Positions 3,701 to 33,100 of a stretch of DNA of 64,000 nucleotides are shown piece after piece; the stretch's first letter is position 1; each line of letters begins with the position of its first letter. The stretch is from assembly GCA_963281255.1 (NCBI GenBank), contig OY725506.1, positions 663,001 to 727,000 on the forward strand, given 5' to 3'. Below the pieces are notes generated by a model, which saw only the letters and a list, made by a program, of their open reading frames with translations, searched no databases and was not told the origin of the DNA. Source of the stretch: Aphrocallistes beatrix. Taxonomy: Eukaryota > Porifera > Hexactinellida > Sceptrulophora > Aphrocallistidae. The position numbers and the translations under genes are program-made.

Positions 3701-5753
3701 CCTATCAGATTCAATCGAATGCATCAGCTGGATATTCTATAATTAGATCCACTCACCGTTATTGTGCATGATCTGGGTACCTCCCAGCTGGTAGTTGGAC
3801 AGGTACACTTCTCTCCCCAGCACTTTATTCAGCGCGCCAGCACCAGTCAGGATAATGTGTGAGTCGTCCACTTGGATCACCCGCTGTCCCAAGCGCACCA
3901 GGTACGCTCCTATCCCGATAGCTCTGCACGTCACGAGACTGATAGTGACCACCTCTTCGTATGCGAGACTCGTTTCTCCGGCGATTGCACCGGATCCCCT
4001 CAGGTTCTCAACCCCAAGTCCGTCCTGCTCCCCGATTATGTCCGTTATCTTGTATTGAGTCTGACCCTCCTCTTCTATCAGAACTGCCTTCACAGATCCC
4101 TTCTGTGACAGCTACAGAGACACCGTAACAAGCTTAGCTGAGTATATCTCTCTTACATGTAAATATTTGTTTATTAATAGCACTTTATTATGTTTAAATT
4201 CTATTTATAGCAGGGACACCATATTTCTAAGGTTTCCCCGCCCAAAATGATTTAATCGGAAATGAGTTTAAATCCAATCCATAGTACATTGATGGTTAAT
4301 TAAGCCGTAAATCTGAATCAAATTGTCACTTTTTGTAACGAAATTGCCAAAAGAAAAATGAAGGATTTGACCAATTCGGTTCGCGTTTCCCTTTTTACCT
4401 CAGCGAAGTCTGGAGATGTGAGGTAGAGGTGCTTGTAGCCTTTGTCCGGAGAGTTCGGGTCGATCCAAGCCACTTTGAACCGTTTCTTCACCTCATCTGC
4501 TAGCCCAATCCTAGCGCCACTGTTCACTGAAATGTAAATCCGAGGCAGTCCTAGCTCTCGACTCAACTTAGAAGCAAACTGGAAGACCAGATCTTCCTTA
4601 GGACCGAACGACCCGATGAGGAATGTGATGTCGTTAGATATCAAGACGATGTCTCTGCCCGTCGGGTACTCTGGGGTGTGTAGACGAAGCTTCCAAGCTA
4701 CCATCCCGATCTAAGGAATGCGGATTTACTCATAAGACCCAAATAATGTGGGTCAAGGTTTTGCAAATGAATTTAAAATGCTGCTCCTAACTTTTGTGAT
4801 AAACAAATTGATTTATATAAAAACAATTCAATTCAATCTTCTTACATTATTCAATCCAGCAACTCTGTTAATTTCTTGCAAGCCAGTCTCATCCTTATTA
4901 AGCACAAGCTCTGTAGCAACCACAAGCTCCTCTGGAATGTTCCTAGTCTCATCATCCGGTTGCTTATACTTCTCGAAGTGGGCTTCCCATTCCAACTTGA
5001 GGGTCTGGTGGAACATCTCCGGGAAATCGTACACGTAGCTGGTACCCATGGACTGGGCGGTGAACCGCTTGGATTGGAGATGGTCCTTTGTGAGGTAGGG
5101 GAAGTGCACCTTCATGCCGTGGTGGGGACCCCGGCGTCCCTCAAGAGAAAGCGAGTCGAATATCAAATCTCCTGAAATGGAAGTTTAATTACAATCATGA
5201 CAGTCATATGGACACTTAGATATTCTTAGTAGTATGTAATTAGGTAAAAGTTGGAAACGCCCTGGAGTTATTAATGTAGATTTTCTAAGTAAGTATGTAG
5301 GAACTATCGCCGATAACTGCCACAAAAATTAAATCTGATATAACTTAAATTGTATTTCTAATCAAGGATCTTCGTTAGCTCCGCTATTCTGCTGAATGAT
5401 AATAACGCTAATGTATTGCCAATGTCCATGACTGGGATTTATATGTATACCAATGAGTGGAATGGATTAGTCTAAAGATGTGTTCTTATTAGCTGCAGTG
5501 TGGATGCTTACATACCGTTAGGTCCCTCTATCTCTCGGTACACGTATATCTTGAGGTAGAAACCAGATTCACAGATGAGGAAAAATCGGATGTTCTCCTC
5601 GGGGGAGAGTTTGTTGGGACGGGGGTGAGTAGAGAGAGGGGAGAGAGGAACTTCTGATAATCGAACGGTGCATTTGATCTCAGCAACTGTCACTCTTAGT
5701 CTTAGGAGGCGAATAGCATGCGCCAAAGCCATCTTTTGGAGCTCCTTTTCAAC
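741..5753 (-). CDS. ACACA: ACC exons 19-26: carboxyltransferase domain (3' end missing)
   Basis: Exons: 5753-5516, 5171-4846, 4710-4399, 4111-3757, 3654-3269, 2843-2717, 2453-2276, 1008-741. The domain transfers CO2 from biotin to acetyl-CoA. Landmarks are [19 protein letters not shown] (start of CT), [38 protein letters not shown] (oxyanion and CoA region), [79 protein letters not shown] (spans an intron), and [14 protein letters not shown] at the last donor. The final helical exon(s) of CT, vertebrate DILDWKTSRTFFYWRLRR onward, are not in the window. Confidence 0.96.
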
Positions 5754-8700: not shown

Positions 8701-11700
8701 CTTCGAGTAAATAATAGGTTAAATCGGATTCTATAGCGTTTGTTTATTATTTTATGGCAAGACCCTTTGAACGCCCTAGTATTAACTAACTCCACTTCTA
8801 TAAATAGAATCTAACTTGTCTGGCTGCTAGCGTGACTTTAGAATTCTTGTGATTGGTCAGTGTGGTGAGTTCGTGAAGGATGGACTTCACTTCAGAGTTC
8901 AGAGGTGCAGACATCTGTCCGAGGTTCGCAATCAGCTTGATGGCAATGGCGTTCTTACACACCACATAGAAGTGTGAAAATATGTCGTCTGTCACTTTCC
9001 TGATGTCGCTTTCATGCGAATCTTTGAGTACCTGAGCTGACTGTTCGTAGGTATGCAGATTGAAAACCTTTTCAACTCTAACAATTCAATATATGAAAGC
9101 GTTTACATTGCATACATTCCAACCTGGGCTAAGATGAAAGAGGGACGAAGCGTTGAATGCGGCGGGACATGACGGGACGCATTAGAAAAGTACTATACAT
9201 ACATATAATACAAAAAAAGCGGGATATAATGTGAATTTCATATAAAAGCAGGATATTCGAGGAGATAGTTCAATAGACGAATGAAAAAAGCGGGATGTCC
9301 CGCCAAAAACGGGACTGTTGGCAGTATGCATTGCATTATCCGACTTACCTGAAATACTCTTTGAGCAGATTGATGATCACTGCTCTCATGTGCCCAGTTA
9401 TTCCGTTAGCAAACTTCCTCACTACGTCCTGTATGGCAATGGTAGAGAGGTAGAACGCGTTCTGTTCTGACTGGTGCTTCAGTGTAGCAGCGTATGCGTC
9501 CAGAATGTTAGTTATCTGAGCACACAGTAATAATCCAACATAGAATAGTCAAGGTAGGTATGTCGTGAGTCTTAACCTGTATGCTAGGGAATGGGAATAG
9601 TAGAGAAGTGGAATTCTTCTCGTAAAGTCTCAATTCATCGTTAACTCCTTTCTCCACTCCAGGGGGCAACCGACCGGCCAAGCTAGACATGACTTGCTGT
9701 AGCTCCTGTAGAGGTAGCAGAGGGCTCTTCAGACAGGAGATGAATTTGCTGTGAGCTGACTCTACTCGCTGTTTCGAGATGGCATCGGGCAGAGAGAAAC
9801 CTGACATGAGGTAGCGGAGTCTGTCGTGAGCGTCTTGGAAGGTTTGGTTGACTTTCTCCTTCGCGGGGCTCTGTCTTGTCAGATGTTCTGGGAATCTCTC
9901 TGTGAACACTTGGGCCTGTAGGAATGTGATCAAACATAGCGATACGGGATTCTGGTTGTTAGCCAAGAGCGCACGTGAATGTTAAATATAGATACAAGTA
10001 TTTCATAAGTTATGTGTGTAGAAGGAATGAGCCATACCCGTAATACAAATCCTGTGAAAAAGGAAATGTGCTTAGGATATAATCCGTTCGCATGATCTTG
10101 AGAAATCTAACAGTCTGATTTCTATCAAATTTAGCATTGTGATGTCTGAGTACTATGGAGGATCAGAGGATTGTAATTCCAGATCCTTATTTCTAGCTCA
10201 TGATCAGAACTTGAACTGACTAAGCATGAGAGAAGGGAGGAGCTCTAACCTGCACAATCTGAGACTCATCCTCCAGCTCTAGCATCGCCACGACGTCTCC
10301 ATTCTGTAGCACAGCGCCTGCTCGCTTCAGGAACGAGATAACCCCGGTGGCAGGAGAACAGAGAGAAGTGACCATCTTCATCACTTCGATCTCTGCGATC
10401 ATCTCCCCCTCGCTGACACGAGATTCCTCCTCAGGGAAGAACTGGAGGAGCTTCCCGGGACTGCTCGCCCTGATCATGCGAGGGTCGTTCTCCTTCATGA
10501 ACACAATCGTCTTTCCGTCTATCACGAATCTATGCGGAGCTTACGTCTTTATTGAGGAACAGCTTTGTTTGTTTGTTTGTTCGTTCATTTGTTTGTTTGT
10601 TTGTTTGTTTGTTTGTTTGTTTGTTTGTTTGTTTGTTTGTTTGTTTGTTTGTTTGTTTGTTTGTTTGTTTGTTTGTTTGTTTGTTTGTTGTTGCATGTTT
10701 GCTTATACCTGAATCTATCCAAGTCCTCTCGCATGTAAGCAGTATAGCTGCTATTCTCCGTAGAGATAAGCAGGCCCCCGTCACTCAGTTTGTGAACCCT
10801 GGCCTCCACGTAGGAGCCGTTCATCTCCAGCAGATAGAGGGTGGGGCCCACCCGTGAGGACGTGAGAGCGTACTTCACACCTTCGTAGATGAGTTCTATG
10901 TCCACGGAGTTGTTCAAGAAACCGGCGTTTAGCACCAGGCCTCTACTCAGACAAGCTCGGTAATCCGCGAATCGCTTCTCAAGGGTGGACTCATATATGC
11001 TGATAGACCCACAGATAACACCTACCGCAGTGGTGCAGTGGTGAGTAATGGCTCAGGATTCATACGAAACTATTGGCTACAACTTCAACTCAACATTTCG
11101 AAGAGTTAGAAATAGTTAGACCATAGCGTACCACATACTCGTATAAGGCCTCACAGTAACTTGCGAATTTTGGACTAGGGATGCGGTAGAAGATGATGGG
11201 TAATACATGAGATGCCTTAAATCATTAACAAAGCACAATAGAGCTTAGGAATGTATTAGCAGCATATATAAATATGGTACCAAAGCACCTATATCCGTTA
11301 TTAAATTTTGATTACTCATCATATGCTTGCGCAATATGTTATATTTATGACAAATTTAGTGATTTTGAGAGGTCGTTTAAGGGCACTTCTAAGTGTTTTA
11401 TCATGAAGTCTTTCGTATAGAATTGAGCTATGAATGGGTTGATGTGAAAATTTAGGAATTTATTCATGGAAAGTTGCTACATTGCAGTGTTGCTATGGAA
11501 GCGTATTTTGGTCAGTTGGGGTCTTCTTGGAAATCGCAAGAAATAGACATCAAATTTAATTCCATTTGACACCCAATATACTACTTCCTATTAAGCGATA
11601 ATATAATATCTATATCTAAATTCAATCAGCATTATTAAGCTCTAGTGTGCGTGGTTAACGATTTAAGGCATCTCATGTATGAGTTCAACCATCTTCTACC

Positions 11701-14700
11701 GCATCCCTAGTCCAAAATCCGCAAGTTACTGTGAGGCCTTATATGTAGTCTGCTATGGTTAGACTTAATTTGATTATGATGGGAAATTACTACAGACCTA
11801 TAACAGTATCAGGAGCCTCTGCCTTGACTCTCTCACTGATCAGCTGATCCAACCATCCGGTGTGAATGCTGTTCTGCTGGAAGGCTTCTGTCTCGAGGAG
11901 CTTAATCAGATACTCCACCGTCGTTCTGAAGTCCCCTCTGATGCTCAGCTCCTTCAACGCCAGAACCATGTTACTACACACAGTGCATTGTGATACAAGT
12001 CTAAATTTAGAACAGTTCTATACATAGGACTTGGAAGGGTATTTCTAGCGATGGCAAAATAAAGTTTTCGATGTGTCGTTATGTTTCATTTTAGAAAATC
12101 ATGGGAAAGTTAAGCACAGGAAAGAGTGAATACCTTCTGGCTTGATCTCTAGTCTCTCCCCACGAGAAACAGTGTCCGAACTGAGAGTCGGCGAACTCGT
12201 GGAGACCTCCAGACACCCCCACGCTGAAGTATCCCCAGACGTTCCTGCTAGAGCGGAAGTTCAGCTCCTGAATCTGTCCAGAGCTGGGCTTGAATCCTTC
12301 GTCCGGATTCTCAGCCGTAATCCGGCAAGCAATCACGGCGCCGTTGGGCTCTGGCTGCTGCTCGGGACTGTCGAAGTCGATGAGGGAGTCTCCCGTCGGA
12401 TCTGCGCCGTACAGCAGGCGGATGTCTCTGATTCTGTGCAGCGGGATTCCCATGGCGATCTGGAGCTGCGCGGCTGGCAGGTTTATCTCCGTCACCATCT
12501 CTGTGCACGGATGTTCCACCTGCACACACAGTAGAAACTGATACGGCACATTGGAATGTGAAGCTAGAGATTATCAAATACCAGTGTGTGTGTACTATGA
12601 TTGGTTGTATAAACGAATATTTTGGAGGAATAGAACAAATCAATTGATTTGGAGTAATACTTGGTGCGGGATAGTTCAAACCAGTTCTTTGTATTTAAAT
12701 GCTCAGCATTTATTTATAGCTTCAGTGCCATAGAAAATGGCTGGGACAAATCTGCGAAATCGAGGACACTGTGTCCCTACTGGGCATTTTACGGTTAAAG
12801 GAAAAATTGGAACTGCCAATCCTTCCAAACACTCTTAACATCTTAGCCTAAGCAGTGGTTCCCAACCTGGGGTCCATGGAAAATATCAGGGAGTCATATA
12901 ATTCGAAATTGTGCTACGGTTAATAAGGGTCCACATAATATATAGGAAAATGTCTATAAGGAGTCCACACTCAAAAAGGTTGAAAACCGCTGGGCTAAGC
13001 CATGAGAAGAGAGAGTTCTCACCTGGAGACGCGGATTGAGTTCGAGGAAGAAGAACCCTTCTTCCGTGTAGAGGTACTCCACCGTCCCTGCACTCACGTA
13101 CCCCACCATCCGAGCTAGCCGAACAGCTGCTCGCTCCATCTCCTGGAACACGGAAGGGGGAGCGATGGAGACCGGCGCCTCCTCTATGATCTTCTGGTGT
13201 CTCCTCTGCACGCTGCAGTCACGTCCCATCAGAGAGATCGCCTGTCCCGACTCGTCCGCCAGGATCTGCACTTCCAAGTGCCTAGCGTTGCTGGCTAGCT
13301 TCATGATGAAGATGGGGGAGCCCTGCACTTCCGTCTGCACCTGAGTAAGCGGAGGTAACGCTCTGGCACTGAGAATGGACTGAGAGATTGGCTGACAAAC
13401 TCCAATTATAAAGTCGGAGTCGCTTTCTTAGTAGCAACTCCATTAAAAAAGTCTGGATTTTTGTGGTATGGAGGAATTAGTTCGCAAAAAAACAAATAGT
13501 TCGACTTTTGAAAAAAGGAAATAATAGTCCACATAAAAACCACCATTAATCCTAATGATAAAAAGTTGAACTATTTCCTTTTTCGAAAAGTCGAATCATT
13601 TCTGAATTACACTTTTTTGACCATCGTTTTTTGTATCAAATCGATTCGAAAAAAAAACTTTTCAACAGTATGTTTCACTCGGTAGTCTCAGTAGCATTGA
13701 GAAGTGTCAATAGACCTCTCTGGTAGACAGATAACGCTAACTCATAGAGCTATGACTCATCGTCGTGGTGCTGGTGCTAGGATGGAGCTACCTGTCTGAA
13801 GAGGGTGACGAACTCCTCCTCGCTGCAAGCCTTCCGGATCCCCTTGCCCCCTCCCCCCTCCGAGGCCTTGATCATGACAGGAAACCCGATCTGCTTCGCC
13901 ACCTCCAATCCTCTCTCCGGTCCTTCCACACATCCGGTCTGGTACAGGGAGTGAGGGACTGTGAAGCCTGAGCCTGCGTCCGTCACTTCTTCCAACTTCA
14001 GACCTGTGGGATGAGCTGAATGAACAGAGCAGAGCGGAGCTGACCAATCCATTGGAATGGAGAAGGATTATTCATTAGTTAATCTATGAATTATTCAAAT
14101 CTCAGATATTAGCGCAGAGGTGCTTTGCCCAAAAGTGTTAAAATGTGGCTTACGTTAAACACCTCTAACACTGCTCAGTCCATAAACTAAATATAGAACC
14201 CTTTCAATATTTTAGTTTCAAATTTGAATAATTCATTGCTATTTCATGGTTACTCAGTCTAGGTGCAGACGGCATTGAGTAGTGCTGCTAGTTCGAGGAT
14301 ACTTCAACACTGATTCACGGAGATTATGACGGTAGCTCAATATAGGAGTACAGATAAGCAAAATGTGCTTCAATAGAACTCTCCTTTCTAGCTTAAAACT
14401 GTCGTTATTAGTATTGATTGAAAGGAGAGTCGTGCATACCAGAGCCACTCCACGGTAGCGTAGGGACGTTGGCCGTCTGAGCCACGATGCTGGAGGCGAT
14501 CTTGTCTCCGAGGGCCCACATGGCGTGCTCGGGCGGGCCTAGGAATGCGATCCGGTGCTTCCTCAGCTGCTCGGGAAGCCGGGGGTACTCCGACGCGTGT
14601 CCCCAGCCGGCCCACACAGCCTGCACCTGCTCCCTCCTCGCCACGTCCACGATCAAGTCCACGTTAGCGTAGTTGTTGTTGTTGGAGCCTCCTACACAGC

Positions 14701-16586
14701 AGAAGCAGAAGATTGGTTAGAGCTAGGAACATGTCGCATGCAGTTAGGAATGAGTCTTAGGATTCGGCCTCCACTCTCCTACCTTCTCTCACTCAAACGC
14801 GTCACTGAACTTTGACAATCAATCCGTTCTGAAGATGACATCATGCCAACTGTTCCGTTTTTGGCGGAACGTCCCGCTTTTTTAACTCTTTTATTGAGAT
14901 AATTTTCAAGAGTTTCACGTTTTTATATGAAATTTCTCCATTATGTCCCGTTTTTTATTTTATATACAGTCAGGGTCGCTTATTATGAACATTCGTTGAT
15001 TATGAACTAACCTTCTAAGGTCCCAATTTCATTTCTTAGATAGGATTTGTATTGAACCAAGTTTGCTTAATATGAAGTATCTCTATTATGAACAGATTTT
15101 TTGGTCCCCTGTTGGTTCACAATAAGCGATCCTGACAGAATTTTACTTTTGTATTGCGTCCCGCTTTTATCATGGCTCAAGTTTGCATGTATGAAACTGT
15201 GTATATTTGTATTTCTGGATTAGTTTGTTTACTTTTGTTTGAATAACTTCATTCGTAAACAAGGAAAGAACTCACCTGGCACACAAACACAGTGATCAGC
15301 CATCCGTACGAACTCAGCATTGGCCGCCATATCTTCTGGAGTAACCATGACAACGAACTTGATCGCTCTCTCATTCCGAAACACTTCGTATGCCCATCTG
15401 CGGATAGACCGCATGGCTTTCACAGCGGCGATGCCGTTGTTCGAAATCAGCAATTTATCGATCGGTCTCAGACCGCCATATCGTCGCACAAACTCCAGAG
15501 GCGTCGCGACCTATGCAAATTCAGTAATTTTACGTATTCTAAATATAGAATATTCAACAAAATACTTCAATCGAGTCAATTCAAAGCTAATACTTCAATC
15601 GAGTCAATTCAAAACTAATTCAAAGCTTAGCGTATGCGCTAAAACACTGTAGTGTTTCATATATTTAAAATATTTTAAATATATGAAACACTACAGTGTT
15701 TTAGCGCATGCACTAAAATGAAAACAGCGCATGCGCTAAAGTAAAACAGCGCATGCGCTAAAATATTTTAAATATATGACAAGTATGTATATTTCATATT
15801 GCATTTATTTCATATTGCAAAGGAAAGTGTTGTGTCGTGTTGTGTTGTGTTGTCGTGTTGTGTTGTGTCGTGTCGTGTTGTGTCGTGTCGTGTCGTGTCG
15901 TGTCGTGTCGTGTTGTGTCGTGTCGTGTCGTGTCGTGTCGTGTCGTGTCGTGTCGTGTCGTGTCGTGTCGTGTCGTGTCGTGTCGTGTCGTGTCGTGTCG
16001 TGTCGTGTCGTGTCGTGTCGTGTCGTGTCGAATATTTTAGCGCATGCGCTAAAGTAAAACAGCGCATGCGCTAAAATATTTTAAATATATGACAAGTATG
16101 TATATTTCATATTGCATTTTGTAAAATGTCATGGAAAGTGTTGTGTTGTGTTGTGTTGTGTTGTGTCGTGTTGTGTCGTGTCGTGTCGTGTCGTGTTGTG
16201 AGCGCTAAAGTAAAACAGCGCATGCGCTAAAATATTTTAAATATATGCAGACTATGGATATTCAATTTTTTATAACGCATATCTTCGAATATATTGGTTA
16301 TTGTCTTAAAGTTGAGGGAAATATTGAATTAACAATGTAGAATATCTGTTAAATACGGAGAATATCTGTTAAATACGGAGAAAATAGGTCAAATCGGGAT
16401 TATAAGCTCCCGGCGGGACTTGCGTCGAGAGTCGGGATAGAGAAACGAGATCGGGAGGGTTGGACAGAATGGATTATGTATAACTATCCTAACACTAAAT
16501 AAAAGTATTACTTCTCCAAAGGCTTGTCTCGTTCTGTCTCCAGATAGAGAGCGTGTGTGTTTCTTTGAACTTTTAGATTCACTCAT
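741..16586 (-). CDS. ACACA: Acetyl-CoA carboxylase, multi-domain cytosolic type (26 exons, C-terminus off the window)
   Basis: Biotin enzyme that makes malonyl-CoA from acetyl-CoA and bicarbonate with ATP, the committed step of fatty-acid synthesis. I placed 26 exons by similarity to animal ACC and by splice sites; joined they give 2,131 codons without a stop. Domain order is BC, BT/BCCP, central region, CT. The start is the ATG at 16586: exon 1 (16512-16586) encodes 25 residues and joins in phase 0 to exon 2. There is no long mitochondrial-type leader, so a cytosolic enzyme is likely. Introns run from 61 bp to 1.3 kb. The most C-terminal exon here ends at 741 with a GTGAGT donor after residues EKGVIS. 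Vertebrate ACC1 continues about 130 residues, which must lie left of the window. The four entries below list the exons by domain. Identification is very secure; single boundaries are by eye. Confidence 0.97.
1009..2275. other. ACC intron, 1.27 kb, no gene seen
   Basis: AT-rich intron between CT exons. A purine-poor stretch at 1610-1665 repeats variants of TTTCAATT. I see no coding similarity or clear transposon ends. Confidence 0.6.
2515..2666. repeat. MITE family D, copy 1 (ACC intron)
   Basis: About 150 bp ending GGAGTTGACTG-TA. The arms carry ACTCTGCTTAATCGGGAC and its complement GTCCCGATTATGCGGAGT, so the ends are inverted repeats. It shares internal sequence with the copies at 5870-6148 and 45626-45793. 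CAGT-type ends and TA targets point to a pogo/Tc1-derived non-autonomous element. Confidence 0.65.
5870..6148. repeat. MITE family D, copy 2, split by a nested element
   Basis: Starts TA-CAGTCGACTCTGC in an ACC intron and matches copy 1 up to about 5956. Element B (5957-6113) intervenes. Family D then resumes with GCTTCTATGTATGGGAAC, which in copy 1 follows directly. The right end is lost. Confidence 0.65.
5957..6113. repeat. MITE family B, copy 1, nested in family D
   Basis: A 157-bp element with inverted ends CAGTCAGGTCGCTTATT and AATAAGCGACCCTGGCTG, next to TA. The interior also pairs around TTCATAATA/TATTATGAA-like runs. A second copy is at 14967-15138. It is younger than the D copy it interrupts. 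Confidence 0.75.
6174..9915 (-). CDS. ACACA: ACC exons 10-18: central (non-catalytic) region
   Basis: Exons: 9915-9577, 9515-9349, 9077-8816, 7913-7716, 7628-7369, 7234-7087, 7005-6799, 6626-6489, 6410-6174. This is the eukaryote-specific scaffold between carrier and CT domains. It is the least conserved part, but matches are clear: [67 protein letters not shown] and [19 protein letters not shown]. The exon at 7369-7628 is followed by GCAAGT, not GT. Only this GC donor keeps the frame into the next exon (…HVEK then HFQEFLDIL), so I call a GC-AG intron (7235-7368). The insertion-rich intron at 7914-8815 holds a mariner fragment. Confidence 0.94.
8238..8277. repeat. Dispersed palindromic motif, family G, copy
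   Basis: Contains GCAAGCGAAGCGCGCTTG, also found near 31-52 and, inverted, at 43187-43205. It lies just before a mariner transposase fragment. The origin of the motif is unknown. Confidence 0.5.
8283..8545 (+). pseudogene. mariner transposase C-terminal fragment (ACC intron, antisense to ACC)
   Basis: Translation gives [19 protein letters not shown], then after a frame change [11 protein letters not shown] and, after another, [15 protein letters not shown] with a trailing [17 protein letters not shown]. These match the second catalytic-Asp region and the SPDLAPCD motif of the mariner family (DD34D type) of cut-and-paste transposases. At least two frame changes and loss of the N-terminal half make it a dead remnant. 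It sits in the 902-bp ACC intron at 7914-8815. Confidence 0.8.
9117..9323 (-). repeat. TIR element family A, copy 1 (ACC intron)
   Basis: Reverse orientation. About 200 bp rich in GTCCCG/CGGGAC, bounded by TTCCAAC and GTTGGCA. Further copies are at 14844, 18645, 27495, 34557, 37804 and 62566. The best copies share ends close to CATACTTGCCAAC. No coding capacity; a non-autonomous DNA transposon family. Confidence 0.7.
10250..11021 (-). CDS. ACACA: ACC exons 8-9: BT linker and biotin carboxyl carrier domain
   Basis: Exon 8 (11021-10709) carries the BT/linker region with [18 protein letters not shown] and [11 protein letters not shown]. Exon 9 (10529-10250) is the carrier domain with the biotinylation motif EVMKM; the biotin-bearing Lys is about residue 707 of the joined protein (residue 786 in human ACC1). 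The Val before the lysine is typical of eukaryotic multi-domain ACC, where bacterial carriers have AMKM. The swinging biotin shuttles CO2 between the BC and CT sites. The 179-bp intron between the two exons is almost filled by a (TTTG)n array. Confidence 0.96.
10565..10692. repeat. (TTTG)n microsatellite in an ACC intron
   Basis: Near-perfect tandem TTTG units for about 125 bp, uninterrupted from about 10588. The array fills most of the 179-bp intron and ends 16 bases from the donor of exon 8 (on the ACC strand it reads CAAA). Long open frames over it on both strands are repeat artefacts. Confidence 0.95.
11144..11742. mobile_element. Long-TIR non-autonomous element (ACC intron)
   Basis: About 600 bp bounded by inverted repeats of roughly 80 bp. 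The left arm starts ATAAGGCCTCACAGTAACTT and the right arm ends AAGTTACTGTGAGGCCTTAT. Both arms also share GGACTAGGGATGCGGTAGAA (or its complement) and AGATGCCTTAAATC. The centre is AT-rich and non-coding. A TA adjoins each end. This is a foldback-type MITE with no other copy in the window. Confidence 0.8.
11798..16586 (-). CDS. ACACA: ACC exons 1-7: N-terminus and biotin carboxylase domain
   Basis: Exons (high to low): 16586-16512, 15510-15276, 14691-14440, 14003-13792, 13340-13023, 12519-12134, 11973-11798. This is the ATP-grasp biotin carboxylase half-reaction, which carboxylates biotin with ATP and bicarbonate. Visible landmarks are [20 protein letters not shown] at the domain start, the glycine-rich ATP loop [13 protein letters not shown] (exon 4), [17 protein letters not shown] (exon 5), [14 protein letters not shown] across the exon 5/6 junction, and [11 protein letters not shown] (exon 6). 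All junction phases agree. The N-terminus ([20 protein letters not shown]) is far shorter than the vertebrate one but has an RSLSG run resembling the RSSMSG around the AMPK-regulated serine. That is an inference, since the Arg is at -3, not -4. Confidence 0.96.
12853..12992 (+). repeat. hAT-like MITE family J, copy 1 (ACC intron)
   Basis: Begins CAGTGGTTCCCAACCTGGGG and ends AAAAAGGTTGAAAACCGCTG; the ends are imperfect inverted repeats of a kind common in hAT elements. Flanks GCCTAAG and GGCTAAG look like a decayed target duplication. Other copies are at 25084 and 39699. Confidence 0.75.
13465..13611 (+). repeat. Palindromic MITE family I, copy 1 (ACC intron)
   Basis: Begins GGTATGGAGGAATTAGTTCG and shares the centre CACCATTAATCCTAATGATA and the right arm CTATTTCCTTTTTCGAAAAG with the copies at 31825 and 38666. 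It is the most diverged and shortest of the three. Confidence 0.7.
14844..15187 (+). repeat. TIR element family A, copy 2, split by element B
   Basis: Left part runs from TGCCAACTGTTCCG. It is interrupted at about 14966 by a family-B element and resumes at about 15139 with TTGCGTCCCGCTTTTATCAT, ending GTTTGCA. It lies in the ACC intron at 14692-15275. Confidence 0.7.
14967..15138 (+). repeat. MITE family B, copy 2, nested in family A
   Basis: Starts TA-CAGTCAGGGTCGCTTATT and ends AATAAGCGATCCTGACAG. About 170 bp, alignable to 5957-6113 throughout but in the opposite orientation. Family B is younger than family A here. Confidence 0.75.
15627..15716. repeat. Long near-perfect hairpin in ACC intron 1
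   Basis: Two arms of about 45 bp meet without a loop between 15671 and 15672. The left arm contains GCGCTAAAACACTGTAGTGT and the right arm its exact complement; only about two mismatches occur near the outer ends. It abuts the satellite block that follows. Confidence 0.9.
15722..16250. repeat. Composite satellite: palindrome unit plus (GTGTC)n arrays
   Basis: A unit built of AGCGCATGCGCTAAAGTAAA, a second AGCGCATGCGCT, then ATATTTTAAATATATG and an AT-rich run occurs at about 15724, 16035 and 16205. The first two units end in pentanucleotide arrays, (GTGTC/GTGTT)n at 15828-16030 and 16139-16200. Long Cys/Val/Arg-rich open frames over the arrays are artefacts. The whole block lies in ACC intron 1 (15511-16511). 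Confidence 0.9.
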
Positions 16587-20086: not shown

Positions 20087-20619
20087 ATTACGTGACAGAC
20101 TGTAGTATGAAATTCGTTATAGATATACAGTCTGTTGCATAATATAAACAATTGTTATACTGTTACTGTTAATGCATAAATAGTTTCGAACTAGGAATAA
20201 ATATGAAGTTAGAGTCATTCAAAGTCTAAATCCTATACAATATCCATGGTTGGGCCGTTCGGCATGACTACACTATTGACGAAGCTATTTTGTACAATTT
20301 TAACCCTTAATATTTTGAAAAATATTTTGCCAAGCCATTTACTAATTAGGACTTTTTGAGGCAAAATAATATTCAGTTTTTAATCTTTCCTTTTATTTGA
20401 AAATCGGCTTCGCTAATTAAATGTTGAAAATATTAATCCAAAATTCTAAGCCAGACCCTTTTTCAAGAATTTGCATTGGTAAGTTCTTAGAATTGTATTC
20501 TCAGTGAAGCCAGTATGCTCATTTCACAATTTATTACTGAAAAATCGTATTTCATTATTTATTAAGAGGTACGCTTGTTTAAAAAATATTTAATATTTTT
20601 TTCATTACTCTAGATCAAA

Positions 20620-22824
20620 ATGTCTGACGAAAGAAGACACGAAATGAAAGTGGTCATGGAACTTGAGCCATTATTGACACCTCAAACCATCGTTAAACTT
20701 CAAAACGCAATCGAAGTACCTGCACGAATCGCACAAGAAACTGGAAACGATCCCATTAAGTTCCTCTATGCGCTGAAAGAATGGGACCAATTCGATCCTT
20801 CCACGTTCGATTTAGCGTTACAAGGTGTCGGTGGGAGTATCCTTCACACAGCCAGGAAGCTAGAATGGCTGTCCGACCCGAGTCACAGGCAAAGAGTGCA
20901 CAAAGAAGAACCGAAATCCATGAAAACACTTGTCCAGCTGTTAACACAGGGAATGACCTCACATGAATGGATGGTGCTAGCTCGTACTAGCTCCGATACA
21001 GGACCAAAGTCCATGTTAAAACAATGCATTGAGAACAGAGTCATCACCTCTAACATGGTGGATCTCTGCGAAGACCTCGAAATCGTGAAACGGAACGATT
21101 TAGCAAACCAGGTCCGCGGTTATATAGCAACATTCCAAAATTTGAGTAGCAATAAATTTCGCCAGCAAATCCTGGAAGAAATAGACCGTGATGACAAGGC
21201 AGAGCTAGTAGTGTGGCAGTTGAGCTTGAGAGAGTTCATCCGAACTCAGAATAAGGACGTGAGTGTTATCCTCAATCAAGATCCCGTCCCCATTGAATCC
21301 GTCTACATTCCCCTGACCGTGATCAAGGTGGAGAGTCCCGAGAAGAGAGTAGGGGCAGAGAGCGGCTGTGAAGAGATTGAATTCCTCCGAAATATCCACA
21401 GTAAGGTAGCCCAGGAATCGGTCGAGGTAGTGGACTTTGATTCGATAGTGACCAGTTTTGACTCCTCCCGTCATGAACTCTGGTGTCTGATTGGCAGTCC
21501 AGGAAGCGGCAAGAGTTTTCTCTGTAAGCATTTCGCGTACATGTACGGCACCAGCACACTGACTAACTTCCGGTACGTTATCTCCATCCCGTGCCGGAGT
21601 CCTGAATGGCACAAACTCGAGGATGCAAGACACGAAGCGGGGAACATCGTTGATAGCGACTTCATCGTGTGTTGGCTCTCACTGAGCATGTTTTCAGGTG
21701 CGAAGTGGAGCGAATCCCTCTCTGAGCAGCTGGTGAAATCGGACGGAGAGGGACTTCTGATTATCCTCGACGGAGCCGACGAATTTATAAGGGATGTGCC
21801 ATTCGACGAGACCCTATTGAACTGTTTGCTAAAGCGACGCATCCTCCCGCTGAGCACTGTCCTCGTAACCAGCCGACCTTACGCGTGGTCCGAACCTCAG
21901 GAGAAGTCCCAATTCCGTGTGGACGCACATTTCCAGGTTCTCGGTTTCTCTCCACAAAACCGAGACCTGTATTTCGAAAAGCGCATTGAAACCATTCCCA
22001 AGTTGAACGACGTTAACGAAATGTTGTATCGGCATGAAGAAATCGAACAGCTTTCTCTGATCCCAGTGAATGCGAGCTTGTTCACCGCTCTATTCAACGA
22101 GTCCGAATCGATCCTGACTTTCACGCTTTCCCACATTGTGTACATGATTAGGCGCCAGTTATCCCGTATGGGCCTAAAGGAGCACAGCAAAGTCTGCGAT
22201 TTATCCAAATTCCACCCAGGAATCAAGAAATGTATTCGTTCCATCGGGAAGGAAGCAAACAAGGGCATTTTTGATCGAGATCTCAGCTCCGATAAAAGAA
22301 TTCTATTAAAGATCGGAGACACGAAAGTGAACAGCGAGCGTCTCGGTCTGATGCAGGCACATATGAAAGTGGGTCGTTACGGTAATCGTGTGAAGGTGTG
22401 GACTTTCCAACACCTCACAATACAAGAATTCATGGCCGCCTATTCAATTTGCGCCAACTCCTGGACGAACCAATGTTTAATTTTCCGCTACATAACTTCC
22501 TCTGTCCAATACCTGTCCATGTACAAGATGGTGATTAGGTTTGTGAGTGGCATCTTGAGACATAACGCAGGTCGCTTGACGCCTATTCTCTGCAGACACA
22601 CACTCCCTAAACCGATGTCATTCTCTGAGGTGCCGATGTTTCATAAGCTGAGTTTTACTGCAGAACTAATTGACATTTCAGGTTGGAAAGAATTTGCTCA
22701 ATCATTCCTCCTATTATGCACCGTAATTAGCGAAATAAACTGTTCTGATTCCACTCCCAAACATTTCGCAGAAGTTCCCTTTCCCTCTCTACCTATATTT
22801 CTGGTCCACTGTCTCTCCGAATGA
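20620..22824 (+). CDS. NLR-type receptor: two DED-like domains and NACHT ATPase (5' coding part)
   Basis: 734 codons in one exon. Residues about 10-85 and 95-175 each look like a death-effector-type six-helix fold: FLYALKEWDQFDPSTFDLAL in the first, LVQLLTQGMTSHEWMVLART plus LCEDLEIVKRNDLANQVRGY in the second. A NACHT domain follows, with Walker A GSPGSGKS (292-299), Walker B LLIILDGADEF (Asp384) and the sensor-like TSRPYAW (about 417). The NLR winged-helix signature FQHLTIQEFMAAY is near 595. The family acts as cytosolic sensors that oligomerise on ATP binding; DEDs would recruit DED adaptors or caspases. The start is the first ATG after a good splice acceptor (20613). The frame ends at a TGA, but LRR sequence continues one frame over (next entry). 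The NLR call is secure; DED assignment is by eye. Confidence 0.88.
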   Translation: MSDERRHEMKVVMELEPLLTPQTIVKLQNAIEVPARIAQETGNDPIKFLYALKEWDQFDPSTFDLALQGVGGSILHTARKLEWLSDPSHRQRVHKEEPKSMKTLVQLLTQGMTSHEWMVLARTSSDTGPKSMLKQCIENRVITSNMVDLCEDLEIVKRNDLANQVRGYIATFQNLSSNKFRQQILEEIDRDDKAELVVWQLSLREFIRTQNKDVSVILNQDPVPIESVYIPLTVIKVESPEKRVGAESGCEEIEFLRNIHSKVAQESVEVVDFDSIVTSFDSSRHELWCLIGSPGSGKSFLCKHFAYMYGTSTLTNFRYVISIPCRSPEWHKLEDARHEAGNIVDSDFIVCWLSLSMFSGAKWSESLSEQLVKSDGEGLLIILDGADEFIRDVPFDETLLNCLLKRRILPLSTVLVTSRPYAWSEPQEKSQFRVDAHFQVLGFSPQNRDLYFEKRIETIPKLNDVNEMLYRHEEIEQLSLIPVNASLFTALFNESESILTFTLSHIVYMIRRQLSRMGLKEHSKVCDLSKFHPGIKKCIRSIGKEANKGIFDRDLSSDKRILLKIGDTKVNSERLGLMQAHMKVGRYGNRVKVWTFQHLTIQEFMAAYSICANSWTNQCLIFRYITSSVQYLSMYKMVIRFVSGILRHNAGRLTPILCRHTLPKPMSFSEVPMFHKLSFTAELIDISGWKEFAQSFLLLCTVISEINCSDSTPKHFAEVPFPSLPIFLVHCLSE

Positions 22825-23971
22825 ATGGCATTGTTTCACACAGTCATTGGAATATGTTCATGACTTTCATGTCCTATTTATTCATTCCGGTTTTGTTAAC
22901 GCTAGACAGTTCCATTCTCTCCTAACTCCACTTTCCTCGTGCCATCTCGATTATCTAGCACTAGAGTTTCGTAAGGAAGACTTCGACACCATCCTTTCCT
23001 ACACTGAACCGCTCTCCTCTGCCACTCTACCTACTGACACCAGAATTAGCATTGACTTCTCAAGGTGCGACCTGAAAGCTTGTAACGATTCTCAGCTGCT
23101 GTTCCCTTCAAACAACCAATTCACTGGAAGTTTGTCGTTATATGAATCTCCAATGAACCATTCAATGCTACTGAACTTGACCAATCAATTCACGTCATTG
23201 CACAATTTGTACTATAGTCCCAAGTCAGATGATTCTGATTGGTCAATCATTCATGAATTAATAACAGACAATCCACTCAATGGACTGTACATTGAAGACT
23301 TCTACGGTTTCCTCCCATTTACAGCTGACCTATCAGCGCTCTCCTCGCTGAAAGAGTTTTATTGGTATACGGATCAAGATAGCTACGAAGCATTGCAATA
23401 CTTGCTTAGACTCAGTTCCATCACATACCTCAGTCTACTCTCTCTTTCCTCCCCATCTCCTAATCCATCCTACCCAGACTCTATGACACGAATAATCTCT
23501 GAGAATTCCACTTCACTGAGAGAGATCAGCTTAGATTATTTAAACAGAATTGGGTTCGACAGCTGGAGTAGTTGCTTAGATTTGGTTTCAACCTGTTCCA
23601 ACTTGATATCGTTACAATTGTTCCGGTGCGGTTTCACACCTGATGATATGAGCTGCTGGTACAGAGCTTTAACAGAAATGAAGTCACTCGTTTACTTGGA
23701 ACTCTGGCGCACTCCATTACGAGACTCTGGAATGCTGGTCCTATGTCACAGTCTGAACTACCATCCAGCCATTAGGTATTTATCGATTCAAAATTGCGAA
23801 CTCAGTTCTGACTCGTGTCTCCCGATCAAGTACCTCATCCTGACACCTCCACACATCAGAACACTCCAACTTTCCAAATCCGAACTTTCTGATCCTGATC
23901 CGAAACAGCTGGAACTCCTCGAACAGTCAGCTGAACAATGTTCTATCCAGATTGAATGGCAATACTACTAA
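22805..23971 (+). CDS. NLR-type receptor: leucine-rich-repeat part (3' coding part, +1 frame)
   Basis: Open from 22739 in the frame one base ahead of the NACHT part, so the two frames overlap by about 80 bases. It encodes NLR-type leucine-rich repeats: LSPNEWHCFTQSLEYVHDF, LDYLALEFRKEDFDTIL, NLISLQLFRCGFTPDDMSCW, SLVYLELWRTPLRDSGMLVL, IRYLSIQNCELSS, IRTLQLSKSEL. It lacks a likely start of its own and clearly belongs to the upstream gene. Joining could come from a 1-base indel, a programmed +1 shift at CTC-TCC-GAA-TGA, or removal of 22804-22843 as a 40-nt intron (weak donor GTCCAC, good acceptor TTTCACACAG), which restores frame exactly and would give 1,103 aa. A GTGAGT donor seven bases after the stop (23978) suggests a 3'UTR intron, acceptor TTATTGTGCAG near 24315. 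Confidence 0.82.
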   Translation, partial: STVSPNEWHCFTQSLEYVHDFHVLFIHSGFVNARQFHSLLTPLSSCHLDYLALEFRKEDFDTILSYTEPLSSATLPTDTRISIDFSRCDLKACNDSQLLFPSNNQFTGSLSLYESPMNHSMLLNLTNQFTSLHNLYYSPKSDDSDWSIIHELITDNPLNGLYIEDFYGFLPFTADLSALSSLKEFYWYTDQDSYEALQYLLRLSSITYLSLLSLSSPSPNPSYPDSMTRIISENSTSLREISLDYLNRIGFDSWSSCLDLVSTCSNLISLQLFRCGFTPDDMSCWYRALTEMKSLVYLELWRTPLRDSGMLVLCHSLNYHPAIRYLSIQNCELSSDSCLPIKYLILTPPHIRTLQLSKSELSDPDPKQLELLEQSAEQCSIQIEWQYY

Positions 23972-25425: not shown

Positions 25426-26770
25426 CAGTCTGTCACATAATTATTAAGAATTACTCAATAAATCACAGTACTCACAAGGTATAAGTAATTGACTTCAAAA
25501 TTAATTTTTAGTAAGATAAATAGCTATTAATCAATAATTTATAGGAAAACCTTCGGATGCAATCACCATTTTACATCTTTCAGGCATTGACTGGCAATAT
25601 GGTTGTAAGAATTCGGAACTTATCCCTGACCAAGTATCTTCGAGCATCCTTTTTAGCTCAGAAATTGTTCTAGGCCCTTTTTTAATCAATTCCCTCTTCA
25701 CCCAAGCAAATAAATTTTCAATAGGGTTTAGATCTGGGCTTTGAGAAGGCCAAGGAAGTTGCATAGGCACGTTTTTGTCGATGAAGGCCCTCACGATTTT
25801 CGAGGTGTGCTTGGGGTCGTTATCCATCACTAACCGCCAGTCATCTTGATGGAAAACCTTTGCCTGCTCCAGTAAATGACCTTCCAAAATCTCAATAAAC
25901 TTCAGGCTATCCATATTTGTAGTGAAAACACAAAGGGGAAATGTTCCCATAGAGCTAAAACCAGCCCAAACATTAATTTTAGGGGCGTGCTTAGTGGTTG
26001 GAGCGACCCGTTTTTTTCCTGATTTCGTCCACATCTGTATCCGACCCCTAGAGAGCCAGATGGACATCTCATCAATGAAAACGGTTTTAAACCATGATGA
26101 TTTAGGATACTTATGTTTCTTTGCCCATTGTATTCTACTCTGACGATTCTTTTCGCTCACCATTGGTGAATTAGTCGGGTAGATCTTGGAGTATTTCATC
26201 TCCTTTAGGTTTCGTCGAACCGTCTCATATGAGGGCTTTCCAGGAGCAATTTGTGCTAAGGTACGTAATGAAAGATAAGGTTTGCGTCGAATTTGTTGGG
26301 TTACACACCTCATCGTTGACTTGGTAAATTTTCTGGGTCTTCCGCCACCACTACCATGTCCTAATCCAACGTCGCGTGATTTTCTCGATTTCACTAAATA
26401 GACCGTTGAGACACTGACTCCTTATTTTTCAGCAATTTCCTTTATTGACAGGTCTGTAGTTTCTAGTAACAAATCTATTTGCTCTCGCTTATGTTTTTGA
26501 GCCATTTGTGGTAAAAATAAGTGCTAATTCATGTAGAAATATTAAATCAATGTTATAAAAGTCTAAAATAGGTAAAAACACGAATCATCTCTGAAATTAT
26601 TAGCGTTCACACGAATTAATAACAGAATATACCAATATCATGACATATTTGCAATATAAACACTTCAAATTAAGGTGAAATTGCATTGAATCAACTTGAG
26701 CAATGATATTTTAAAAGATTATGGTCATATAGAAATTGGGTAAGATTCTTAATAATTATGTGACAGACTG
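25426..26770 (-). mobile_element. Nearly intact Tc1-family transposon (1,345 bp)
   Basis: Flanked by TA (25424-25425 and 26771-26772). The terminal inverted repeats match exactly for the outer 26 bp, beginning CAGTCTGTCACATAATTATT, and diverge after that. One transposase frame fills the centre. Full ends, a target duplication and a nearly whole frame point to recent insertion. Confidence 0.93.
25531..26505 (-). pseudogene. Tc1-family DD34E transposase with one premature stop
   Basis: Cut-and-paste transposase. The ATG at 26505 opens MAQKHKREQIDLLLETTDLS with a first helix-turn-helix, then a TAA at codon 28 (26422-26424) interrupts ...EIAEK-GVSVSTVYL. From there the frame runs on to 25531. 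Downstream features are a GRPRK hook (GGGRPRKFTKS), a second HTH (SYETVRRNLKEM), and the catalytic triad: Asp in FIDEMSIW, Asp in VMDNDPKHTSK, Glu in DLNPIENLFAWVKRE, with exactly 34 residues between the second Asp and the Glu. The stop sits where a Leu (TTA) would suit the HTH, so a single point change may have inactivated it. A downstream start would make a protein lacking the first HTH. Confidence 0.92.
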
Positions 26771-27138: not shown

Positions 27139-30100
27139 CTACTTTGCGCCATATTTGACAAGTCCAGAGCTAAATATGGATACTTCCGGTGGTAGGAGGC
27201 TTAACTGGGAAGGGAGGTTGGAGAAGTAAGGGTGCTTGAGAGCTCTGCTCGCACTCAGCCTCTTCTCCGGAGGGTAGTGGAGTAAGCTGTGAGCGAAATC
27301 TTCCGCATGGTCCATTCTCCAGAGCTGCGGGGCTGTCAGTCCCAAACGTAAAGGTGGGTACTGAGGAAATCTAAACCAATGAGATTGTGTGAATGCAAAT
27401 ATGACGTGAGTTGTCTGAAAGAGGGACTCTCAAATAAATTCATTTTATCAACTAGTTTATAGTGATTTATCCATGGTACCTAACCTCAAGTTTTGTATTT
27501 ACAGACTAACTGTCCCGTTTTTCCATGAAATTTCACCTTATGTTCCGATTTATTGAATTCCATATAAATGCTTTCTGTTGTGTTTCGCCATATCCGCGAA
27601 ATTCAACGCCGCATCCCGTCTTTATCACGGCTCAAGCTGCCATGCAAGATAATGCAATCTCAGATCTCAAACAATCTTAAAAATTGAATATTCTCTAAAA
27701 CGCTTCAATTTTGAGAACATTCGTTGAGCTCATTGTAAAGAGAAGAATGATTTAATTCATTGGTCAGATGTTCGTTGGTAAATATGCAAATCTCTAATGA
27801 GGCAAACAAATTTTGCAAGATGGAAGTTAACCAAAATATATGCGAAGATACTGGAGAGATGTACGGTTTAGAACCAGCAATATAATTTATGGGAAACGAC
27901 CCAACTGCTGAAAGCATGGCAGTGTATTAAGTAAGTCGGATAATGTAGAGTATTGGTCAGAGCTGATAGTACACCTCCATCTTATCACTTTGAACTCATG
28001 AATCGTTGTTGTTAATGCAGCATACGTATTTCAGTGAGATGTTATTTGTAACAGTTGTATGGTAGAGAAAAATTATAAATTATGCAAAGGGCTTAATCCA
28101 TCTGAAAATATTAGCGATTAGAAACGTAATTCTATGGTAGGAAAGGAATGTCAACAAGTGTGGAGGATGTGCTAACCTGAACATATTCCATATCTCTGAT
28201 TCTTCTAGCAGAGACCAGTCTGACTCTAGCGGCGTGCCTAGCACTTGGAAAATCTTACATAACTGATTCTCAGGGTTCTTCTGGCCAGGAAACAGCGGCT
28301 GTCCTGTGAGCATCTCCACAAATATGCACCCTACCCCCCACATATCCAGTGAGGTAGAATATTTCTTGTTTCCCAGTAGCACGTCTGGCGGTCTGTACCA
28401 TAGCGTCACTACCTGTGGAGGTACAGAGTTAAACTAACTTCGTGGTAGATAAGTTGATAACGCAAGTGTTCAATGGAATTGAGCTGATATTAATCAGAAG
28501 TAAGGTAGGAGAATAGGACAATTTATCGATGTCGCATCAATATTGCACTTAGGAGACAGACTAAAGATTTCTGTGAAATATTTTTAAAAGAACTCTGTGA
28601 GTTTCCTCATAACCACAGCTGAGTTTTGCTCATTCCTATTTAATAATTACGAAGACAAAGCGAGTTTGAAATGTTAAAAGCTAATCTTAACTAAAACCTT
28701 AAAAAATACACATACCTCATTTGAATAAGTGTTGCTAGGGACTGATTTGGCCCTAGCCAGACCGAAGTCTGCCAGTTTGAGCTCGCCGCCCTTGCTGATC
28801 AGGAGGTTCTGGGGCTTAATGTCCCTGTGGAGAATCTTACGAGCGTGGCAGTACTCCAATCCTCGCAGGAGCTGAAACGCGAATAGTTGCGTCTGCTTGG
28901 AGTTGATACCGTGATCCTATTGGATGGAATTGAATAGAATAACTGAGTTCAAATGCTCCGATGAGCTCACTCAAGTCTAGATGGCGCCAATGGATGAATC
29001 CAGTGATTGGACCAATTTATATTGGAACTTAACTGAATCAGTTCGACTACTGGAATTATTGTGTTAATTTCCATAGAGTTCAGAATGGATTAAAATGCAC
29101 ATACATACATGGTCATTGGATGATTTGAGTGGAAAGACATTAATTATGATGGTTCATGGTAATCGAGATAAATGCACAAAACATGCAATAATGGTAAGTA
29201 CCATTGAGTAAGTGTCAAAACAAGAATCTAAACAAATGGGTAAAACAATAAGGTACGACATTGCATAGACGTGCTAGAATGTAAACAAGTGGTATACAAC
29301 GCTAGTATGATGAAAGCGGATTGTTACACTGAAGGATTACTACAGGATTCAATTGTTATCTGTGTGAACTATAATTATACGCACATAATACTGTCAGATG
29401 TATTTTATATTGTATTTGAGGCATGGAGAGCTTTTCTTCTTTCACAGAACTTCTGATAAGCGAGAGAACTTTTATTTATTTGAGTGGATTTGTAAAATTA
29501 TGAATTCTTGCAAGACACACAAAGCAGGATATTGTTGGAAGATTTCATTCGCAATAATTGCTGGTAGACTGAAGCATAAGTGTTCTGCGGTCATAATGAC
29601 TATAACAGAATTCCAGGTAGCGATCACATACTCTCTGTCTCACACAGATGTAGAAACATTAATATTCAGTTTCCCAAGGGTTACTGGTAGGATAGCATCA
29701 ATACAGCTAGTGGGTTAAAGTGCAGACAAATTGATAGTAATAATTAAGTTTATTAGCTTGTGCGGTATATTAGTGTCTATAAGAATGGATGCATGAAGTC
29801 CAGTTGTTATGTAATGATACAAGGTAGGAGTAAGAATGTAGTTGCTTCATGTCTGGAGTGATAATGCGTCATATTTAAGTGCAAATAATACTCGCGATAT
29901 GGGCTAATAATAAATGGTAAACATTTCTTAACGGTTAGTTGAAGAAAAATTTCCCAAACTTCGACTAATTATTTTCTCATCGAGTTCAAAGTAAATAAGT
30001 TTTGAAAGTATGTTACAGACAATGCTGAGAATATAGTTATCTACCAGTGAACAGTTGTCAGGCGAATTACTGCAGTTGTGTGGTTATAACGGATTTGTAT

Positions 30101-33100
30101 TGGTTAGTTACGAATGAACTGAATTCGGAAGAAATGAGAAAAACAACACTTTTCAAGGATTATCGTTACATCGCTTAATTAATTATAAGCGTTGTACTTA
30201 TAAGTGACAGCAAAAAAGGAAATAAACCAAACAAGAAACTATTCACACAAAACGAAACGGATTTTAAACACTACCGGTATTTGTAGGTAAAAGTATTTCT
30301 CAATGAAATATGCGATTCAGCTACTGAGGATACAATTACACGCAGAAACGAGCAGACGTGAAATGATTAAACGGAGTTTCCATAGACTACATACATACTT
30401 GTGGAATCTTGTTTACTGGCTTGTTTAAACTCATGAACTTCGCACCCAAAATCTGATAATAAATTGTAATAGGAATTAGTCATTGGGAAGTGTAGGCTTG
30501 ATAATTACAGTCAAATCATCCTAATACAATCATAAACATTAAATCGAATTTAATCAAAACAGCTTAATTATCCGTATAACCTACGTAGATTGATATCGTG
30601 TCTTAAGTTTTGCTCCAAGTATTTTCTAAGCGACGATTTCTAATCAAAATATCTTAGGAATGTTACTTTTTACAAATGTTAGCAGTCTAGGCAGAATGGA
30701 ACTGCATTGAATCAACTCCAGGTGCAACGGCAGAATCAGCGACAATCAATTTATGCTGCGATTATTAACCTTAATTGGACGATAGCATCATTGTAAGAAT
30801 TCTCATTCGCATCCTAACAATACCAAATGACTCCGTAGTCAAAAGGTTGTGTGAAAATGCTCATAATTGAACTGGTCGCTGTACTGGCTTAATCTTTCAA
30901 TATAGTTCATACTCTCAGTTTTATCAGAAATTCCATTTGGAATGGCTATCTCCTTTTCGCTGTAAGATAAGTTGAATTCTATTAATAAACCCATACAAAA
31001 CAAGCTATAAAATACTCACTTGTGTATCTAAAATCTTGCTAAGATCTGTGTCGACATATTCGAACACGAAACAGAGTCTGTTAGTCACATGGATGATGTC
31101 ATGGAGGGTTACGATGTTGGAATGCTTGAGTCCTTTGAGTAGAGAAGCTTCTCTGATAGCCGTGAAGGGTGCTCCCTCATTCGGATTGAGTTTAATTTCC
31201 TTAAGAGCTACTTTCTGTCCAGTTCTCACCCATATTCCTTTATAGACCGTAGCATACGAACCTTGTCCCAAGAACTCTAGCTTCCGATACCCTTCCAGCT
31301 TTTCGGTGGAGGAATATTGGCTGGCACATGAATGCCGTCTCCGTCGACGATAGAGAGGGTATGTCCCTCCTGACGGGGGCGTGTTCCCACTGAGCCCTCT
31401 CGGACCCTCGGGCTAAATTAAAAAATAAAAGTAAATTTCTGTTTAAGCATGAAACCCATTTGAAACGTATCTTTACAAATAAAAATGGAATTTTGAAACG
31501 ATATAAATCAGGGCTGGTGCTACTGATATAGTCTTAACCGGACCAATTATCAAAAGTGTTCCGATTGGTTCATTAAAACAGGACCACTTCTAAACCGTGG
31601 AGCCGGTGCTGTAACTTTATAAATAAATTTAGTTAATTCTGTTCTCAAGTCTCACAAAGAATTATCTAGCTCTTCCATACGCATATGCCTTAAGTTAATA
31701 ACTCTTAAGCGCTCTTATGGACAGTCATTTGAAATATCTGTCAGCGTTTCAGATTTATTTGAATTTAATCAGCAAAATATGGGATCATAAATACCAGAAA
31801 ATATATCCGCAGATTCATTCATATGGTATGGTGGAAATAGTTCGAACCAAAACCGGAAATAGTTCGACTTTCCCAAAAAGGAAATAGTTCGAATAAAAAA
31901 CACCATTAATCCTAATGATAAAAAGTCGAACTATTTCCTAAATCCGCAATTCGAACTATTTCCTTTTTCGAAAAGTCGAACCATTTCCGCATTACCATTC
32001 ATAGATGGCCTGCGTCATCTGCGTTGGCAAGAGTTCATAGAGCCTTCACGAGTAGAAATAAATTGATTGGAAAATAATCATTTCAGGTTTAATTAGGAAA
32101 AATCCAGGATTAGATTGAGATACGAGAGAGCGCGTAATAGCATTCAGATGCTTAGATAGACAAACTCAGATGCTCTACAGATTCGGAGTGTGATGATAGA
32201 TGAAAAGTGGACATTTTTTAGTCAATTAGGGTGAAATGCAAACGAAATCAAATATTTTCTAGCCTATTAGAGTCAATAATGTTTTATATTGATCCGCAAA
32301 ATAGGACAGACAAAATATGTTCTCAATTTTTTTCGAATTAAATCATCATAAAAATACACAATTTTATCAGAATTCATAAGAATTCATTTTCAAAACTTGA
32401 TTGATAGATCGTAACACACAAAATGATTGGTTCAATCAAAGCTAATAAGTGCCTACCTGACTGATAGAAGAGGATTTAACTTTCTGCCCCACGGCGAATT
32501 CTAGCGGATCCGTGGTGTCGCACGCGATGGTAGACACACTGACACTCATCTCAGAGGTCCCCTCCAACAGATGCTGCTTCAAGTCGTGCTTCTGCTGACT
32601 GCGAGGAATTCGTCCGTTCGTCTCTAGCCCTGTCACACTCTGAGACTTCGTGAGCCAGCCACTGCTAGCTGAGGAAGGGAGGACCCCACGAGTCAGTCTT
32701 AGCCTGTCGTGAGAAGGAACAGGTGCGGAGCACTTCGACTTTAAAGGAGAATCATTCAGATCTGCGGAATGAAAGTAATTCATATTAGTTCGTGAATTCA
32801 TTCAGAATATACTTATACATTAGACAATATTTTAAATACTCACCAGATATTGTGTCAGATGGGTCGATGGGCTCTCTCGAATCCTCTTTGAGGGCTGGGA
32901 AACCGCTGGAGGTGTAAGGGGACCCCTTGGATGCCAGAAGTCCGGAGGGGGAATGACTTTCGGTTCGAGTAAGTTTTCGAAAAGATCCGGAAAATCTCCG
33001 CTTCAACTTTTTTAGTCTCCCTCCACTATTTTCGTTTCCGTTTCCGTTCGTATTAGAGTTCGAATTGGATTCAACTTGAACTTTGAAACTCTGAGATCTT

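Follow-up and report, generated by a model that had tools for sequence, protein, structure and literature searches.

A frameshifted gene copy in the sponge Aphrocallistes beatrix and its NLR family with twin DED-like domains

NLRs with a death-effector domain (DED) at the N-terminus of the NACHT protein have been described in several animals: the respective reports give DED-NACHT combinations for amphioxus, sea urchin and Nematostella (PMC2575513), count DED among the NLR effectors of Acropora (PMC4083563) and show it in sea anemone NLR trees (PMC5094078). For sponges, the available text of PMC12909245 describes NLRX, NLRC and NLRD genes, with large NACHT-LRR families, in Dysidea avara and ten other species, and lists seven DED genes for D. 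avara without reporting a tandem DED. Amphimedon is reported to have 357 TRADD-N proteins, most architectures holding one to three death-like domains (PMC8195603), so that death folds in series are no novelty among sponges. For Trichoplax sp. H2, NACHT/NB-ARC genes are reported without LRRs (PMC6321704). Here we analysed 64,000 nucleotides (the window) of contig OY725506.1 of the sponge Aphrocallistes beatrix, in which an initial annotation had proposed a DED-DED-NACHT-LRR receptor of possibly little-described architecture. We show that the gene belongs to a large NLR family of this architecture, whose members mostly consist of one long frame each, and that the copy in the window is frameshifted. 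The family shares the N-terminal DED with the NLRs of amphioxus, sea urchin and cnidarians, and its size with the sponge NACHT-LRR families. In the accessible text, however, the former are described with a DED and not with tandem DEDs, as one among several effector types, and tandem DEDs are not reported for the latter, whereas here the twin module was found at 86 of 94 scored NACHT places. The suggestion of a little-described architecture is thus to be narrowed: DED-NACHT proteins are already known, and it is the tandem form alone that did not turn up in print, in full-text searches that missed most subscription papers.

Two DEDs in series also occur in caspase-8, cFLIP and viral FLIP, and the second block of the window protein is closest to the second DED of caspase-8/cFLIP. 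In those proteins, however, the DEDs are followed by a caspase or pseudo-caspase domain; here NACHT and LRRs follow, so that the window protein is neither a tandem-DED caspase nor a FLIP. NLRC4, the top Foldseek match of an intact sibling (L004), has the same overall NACHT-LRR fold, but carries a CARD where the window family has two DEDs.

The family was delimited by searching the host genome (100.5 Mb, 28 contigs); only the best candidates were scored, and all counts of places are therefore lower bounds. With the window protein as query, at least 61 places were scored, nearly all matched over most of the protein and three with internal stops, a number that puts the pattern far from chance. 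From the 59 places fetched, the window's own included, we built an alignment of 45 N-termini (that of the window copy plus those from 44 among the 58 others; the 14 omitted are mostly close duplicates, and L020 was left out as broken) and one of 36 full-length proteins. Structure prediction resolved residues 1-175 of the window protein into two helical bundles. In structure comparisons the first aligned best with the DEDs of PEA-15 and FADD (PEA-15 being the top match) and the second with the second DED of the caspase-8/cFLIP chain, CARD-type structures ranking below DEDs for both. The Pfam family with matches in the largest number of the 45 members is DED (23, best E 4.3e-7), against seven with a Death match (best E 0.043); no CARD or PYD match occurs among the 25 of 40 Pfam families listed for them, PYD having had no separate test. 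DED matches fall in both N-terminal blocks of the siblings, and one relative has two DED stretches and NACHT within a single frame. The RxDL motif, a DED hallmark, is present in its strict form in the second DED of 30 of the 45 members, the window copy included (RNDL), and in the first DED of 20, the window copy being among those that lack it. The best NLR member scanned (L060) stays below the Pfam DED gathering score (33.3 versus 35.9 bits), while a poly-DED relative, L062, exceeds it with 40.2 bits; a profile of the N-terminus matched none of the PDB sequences. These results support the twin-DED reading of the N-terminus: the two successive death-effector-like folds that the initial annotation had read from the helix pattern are both recovered by prediction as six-helix bundles, and the outcome that it had named as refuting (no death-fold profile or six-helix bundle, or a single such fold) did not occur. 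DED is more probable than DEATH or another fold.

The first frame of the window copy starts with the ATG at 20620 and ends with a stop codon at 22822-22824. It encodes GSPGSGKS, ILDGADEF and FQHLTIQEFMAAY, the NACHT hallmarks noted initially, all of which hold. Pairwise BLASTN against L002, L003, L004, L009 and the more distant L005 revealed that 11 bp are missing at about 22770-22771. In 53 of the 57 fetched siblings (a count that omits the window copy, L001, and the stop-bearing L020) the deletion point lies inside a single open frame of 1,100 codons or more; the exceptions are L010, L019, L048, which has a masked stretch inside, and L050. Hence the domain order proposed for 20620-23971 is correct, but not its single reading frame, since the frame ends at 22824 and the LRRs lie in another; the earlier observation is confirmed in part. 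The window protein shares 94-95% identity with the nearest siblings across residues 1-719 or 1-728, implying that the lesion is recent, or confined to this haplotype or assembly. The window copy is most likely a recent pseudogene, whose product would stop after the helical domains, without LRRs. Probable splice signals flank the coding exon (Table 1): 54 of the 57 siblings have an AG no more than 10 nt ahead of the ATG, compared with a rate of 0.38 for the upstream flank, and 41 of the 53 whose frame reaches 1,100 codons have a donor-like pattern within 45 nt past the stop.

Table 1. Features of the NLR copy, in window coordinates.
Feature	Position	Strand	Basis
AG of probable 3' splice site (ctctAG/atcaaaATG) just 5' of coding exon	20612..20613	+	sequence, sibling counts
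Open frame, 734 aa, premature stop	20620..22824	+	reading-frame analysis, Pfam, sibling comparison
First DED-like domain, about residues 4-83, RxDL motif absent	20629..20868	+	
Second DED-like domain, about residues 98-175	20911..21144	+	
RxDL motif RNDL, residues 158-161, second DED	21091..21102	+	
Conserved connector between DEDs and NACHT	21145..21480	+	alignments; helices 177-189 and 192-210 in model
NACHT domain, Walker A GSPGSGKS	21481..21987	+	Pfam PF05729, E 3.6e-17
Helical domains past NACHT (WHD/HD2-like)	21988..22719	+	sibling model; NLRC4 top Foldseek match; weak NLRC4_HD2 match
LRR region, out of frame with first part	22739..23971	+	open frame; LRR in intact-sibling model
11-bp deletion relative to siblings, breaks frame	22770..22771 (about)	+	pairwise BLASTN
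Probable 5' splice site GTGAGT shortly past LRR-frame stop codon	23978..23983	+	sequence, sibling counts

The NACHT match covers residues 288-456 of the window protein; NLRC4_HD2 is matched weakly behind it (E 0.048), and Pfam LRR_6 scores only E 0.023 in the window. The full-length model of L004 (1,116 residues, pLDDT 80.7) has NLRC4 as its best Foldseek match (E 1.3e-19), and by title its 50 best Foldseek rows are NLRs or mammalian oocyte complexes, which contain NLRPs. Its LRR, residues 725-1115, aligns with ribonuclease-inhibitor-type LRRs. The LRRs described earlier as plain are thus present as a region, and intact in L004 by model and fold match, but out of frame in the window copy: C-terminal LRRs in the same protein are found in L004 and not in the window copy. 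The N-terminal death-fold effector of an NLR is found by family profiles, model and structure comparison alike.

The association of the module with NACHT was assessed at 94 scored places out of 176 first-look candidates. In 84 cases the module is found no more than 1.5 kb upstream, in the same orientation (82 with the query L064, 20 with Pfam DED and 40 with the window protein, with overlap), and two of the other ten, both on contig C14, gain it by the tandem-DED query, giving 86 of 94. The remaining eight have frames of 958-1,140 codons in four cases and of 259-495 codons in the other four. At E ≤ 0.01 the genome holds ten CARD and five Death matches, none of them near a scored NACHT place when the lists were compared by eye.

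Conversely, the L064 query scored 150 of 193 candidates as module places, of which 52 have no scored NACHT downstream, 26 of these at C19:425.8-898.7 kb; some of the 52 are fragments, some contain stops and some are perhaps NLRs whose NACHT was not scored. L064 itself has a stop and then a nearby AATAAA, and judging from its sequence nothing seems to follow its DEDs; no ATG precedes the first DED, so an upstream exon is likely. L068 lies 1.7 kb upstream of the NLR L037 and has the acceptor-ATG start of the NLRs; a GTGAGT donor past its second DED means that it may continue into another exon. C7:826436 and L039 form a similar pair. L062 contains at 456-1799 (-) a 447-residue frame in which some five DED-like units are visible by eye and Pfam finds three stretches; it has no match among PDB sequences and is possibly a scaffold or regulator. 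L063 was considered as FADD-like from a DED match (E 1.4e-5) and a Death-like stretch seen by eye; it has no Death match at E ≤ 1 and only caspase-8, at E 8.7, among PDB sequences, and it stays a mere suspicion.

At E ≤ 1 the genome gives 63 matches to the caspase domain, each exon piece being counted on its own. Three large caspase frames were fetched and two scanned with profiles: L065 is a Roc-caspase frame (Roc E 6e-12, with a weak CARD at E 0.48), L066 in its fetched portion combines CARD with caspase, and L067 resembles L065 by eye. A caspase with Roc or CARD in a long open frame is an unusual combination, and our literature search on ROCO and caspase in sponges found nothing on point. 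Tandem-DED frames lie upstream of caspase matches, on the same strand, at C13:4702930 (match 4710422, L065) and C17:428930 (434228, L066) and, on the minus strand, at C17:451078 (447041, a match with internal stops). On C13 no ATG precedes the P-loop of the Roc exon, which has a probable phase-1 acceptor, and the tandem-DED frame has a GTAAGT donor, also in phase 1; the frame at C17:428930 has a weaker phase-1 donor. The C13 phases would permit an in-frame join of the twin DEDs to the Roc-caspase exon, which is a lead and not a finding: equal phases arise by chance in one case out of three, intervening exons are possible, and C13 has two more tandem-DED frames farther downstream. Among the remaining large caspase frames viewed in the lists, none has a tandem-DED neighbour; proximity was computed for 46 of the 63 matches, the other 17 and the tandem-DED query list being compared by eye. 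An enrichment estimate for this proximity, made from rounded numbers picked by eye (20 module loci, 6 caspase loci), carries no weight here, as it disregards the clustering of immune genes. L061 (C1:9114275-9118162) was tried as a DED-caspase and rejected, as a separate frame on the same strand lies between its DED exons and its caspase exons; by eye this frame reads like a thiamine pyrophosphokinase.

We consider it likely that the window gene is a frameshifted copy of a DED-DED-NACHT-helical domains-LRR family whose intact members act as sensors through DED filaments and caspases. The intact members would most likely be cytosolic: the LRRs would read a trigger, the NACHT ATPase would then oligomerise, and the oligomer would gather the tandem DEDs and seed a DED filament with other tandem-DED proteins, in the manner of FADD, caspase-8 and FLIP, bringing caspase domains together and leading to cell death. 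NLR inflammasomes and FADD/caspase-8/FLIP filaments are the established models behind this scheme, and from them we infer binding of a trigger, oligomerisation and the formation of filaments, as well as the caspase partner and the outcome. What the analysis itself shows is the architecture, the two DED folds (by structure prediction and family profiles), the family size, the deletion, the tandem-DED frames without scored NACHT and the many caspase domains. It is qualified by the state of the window copy, a broken member of a mostly intact family; the absence of a Pfam DED match at E ≤ 1 in the window protein, whose DED assignment rests on its family and its model; and the absence, among the genome frames scanned, of any frame with both tandem-DED and caspase matches. 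The direct link to DED caspases suggested initially is not borne out: caspase domains are many and there is a candidate bridging gene, but no frame joining the two was found. That the N-terminus is instead another death-fold pair (Death or CARD), or one DED beside a different helical bundle, DED-like in shape only, is improbable given the E values of DED and Death, the DED matches in both sibling blocks, the best alignment of both blocks with DEDs and the RxDL motif at both places in part of the family. It is very improbable that the window copy is functional through splicing of the 49-bp stretch 22723-22771. This was our initial reading of the frame change, as the stretch starts with GT, ends with AG and has a length that matches the change; sibling DNA spoke against it, since there the equivalent stretch is coding, with the 11 extra bases alongside, and no intron is needed for the frame, and 49 bp is very short for an intron.

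A less likely alternative to the proposed sensor scheme, though one to be taken seriously, is that the tandem DEDs recruit no caspases and work through further proteins with tandem DEDs, in the role of inhibitors, scaffolds or NF-kB-type regulators, like viral FLIPs and PEA-15. The module places without scored NACHT, the apparent end of L064 after its DEDs and PEA-15 as the best structural match of block 1 are consistent with it, whereas the 63 caspase-domain matches and the three tandem-DED frames upstream of caspase genes argue for caspase partners. Tentatively, the sensor scheme might extend to a tandem-DED code made up of DED-DED-NACHT-LRR receptors, free tandem-DED proteins and executioners with twin DEDs before Roc, CARD and caspase domains, in which caspase activation by a sensor could proceed through a twin-DED filament, with no need of an ASC-like adaptor. 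Early-animal NLRs are often listed without an N-terminal signalling domain, leaving their output unknown; in this one genome almost every scored NACHT gene has twin DEDs that escape standard cut-offs, which offers a concrete and testable path leading from the sensor to cell death. Other 'domain-less' NLRs merit re-examination by family alignments and structure prediction, and some NLRX might, like the window copy, have DEDs whose divergence puts them below Pfam cut-offs.

Ratios of nonsynonymous to synonymous divergence (dN/dS) from five groups of relatives (27 loci) lay at 0.16-0.56 in the DEDs, at 0.10-0.29 in NACHT and at 0.48-0.86 in the LRRs; one group, C6, had 0.56 in the DEDs and 0.48 in the LRRs. 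Synonymous divergence (dS) in the closest group was 0.77 in the DEDs versus 0.20 in NACHT; among the close paralogues L002-L009 the DED region exceeds NACHT about fourfold. This suggests exchange of DED modules, homogenisation of NACHT, or gene conversion among copies.

Elsewhere in the window, a Tc1/mariner-type transposase (25531-26421, minus strand, 296 codons open, Pfam DDE_3 E 3.5e-21) lies 1.6 kb from the NLR copy. Also on the minus strand are acetyl-CoA carboxylase-like exons at about 2529-13427, with Carboxyl_trans, Biotin_carb_C and CPSase_L_D2 matches and flanking exons on both sides by eye only, and exons of a protein kinase gene at about 28083-31412, with Pkinase matches in three frames and CDK-like by eye. 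A partial homeobox exon lies at 59235-59537 on the plus strand (Homeobox_KN E 2.3e-9), and simple tandem repeats at about 10600-10700 and 15800-16050 give rise to long repetitive frames.
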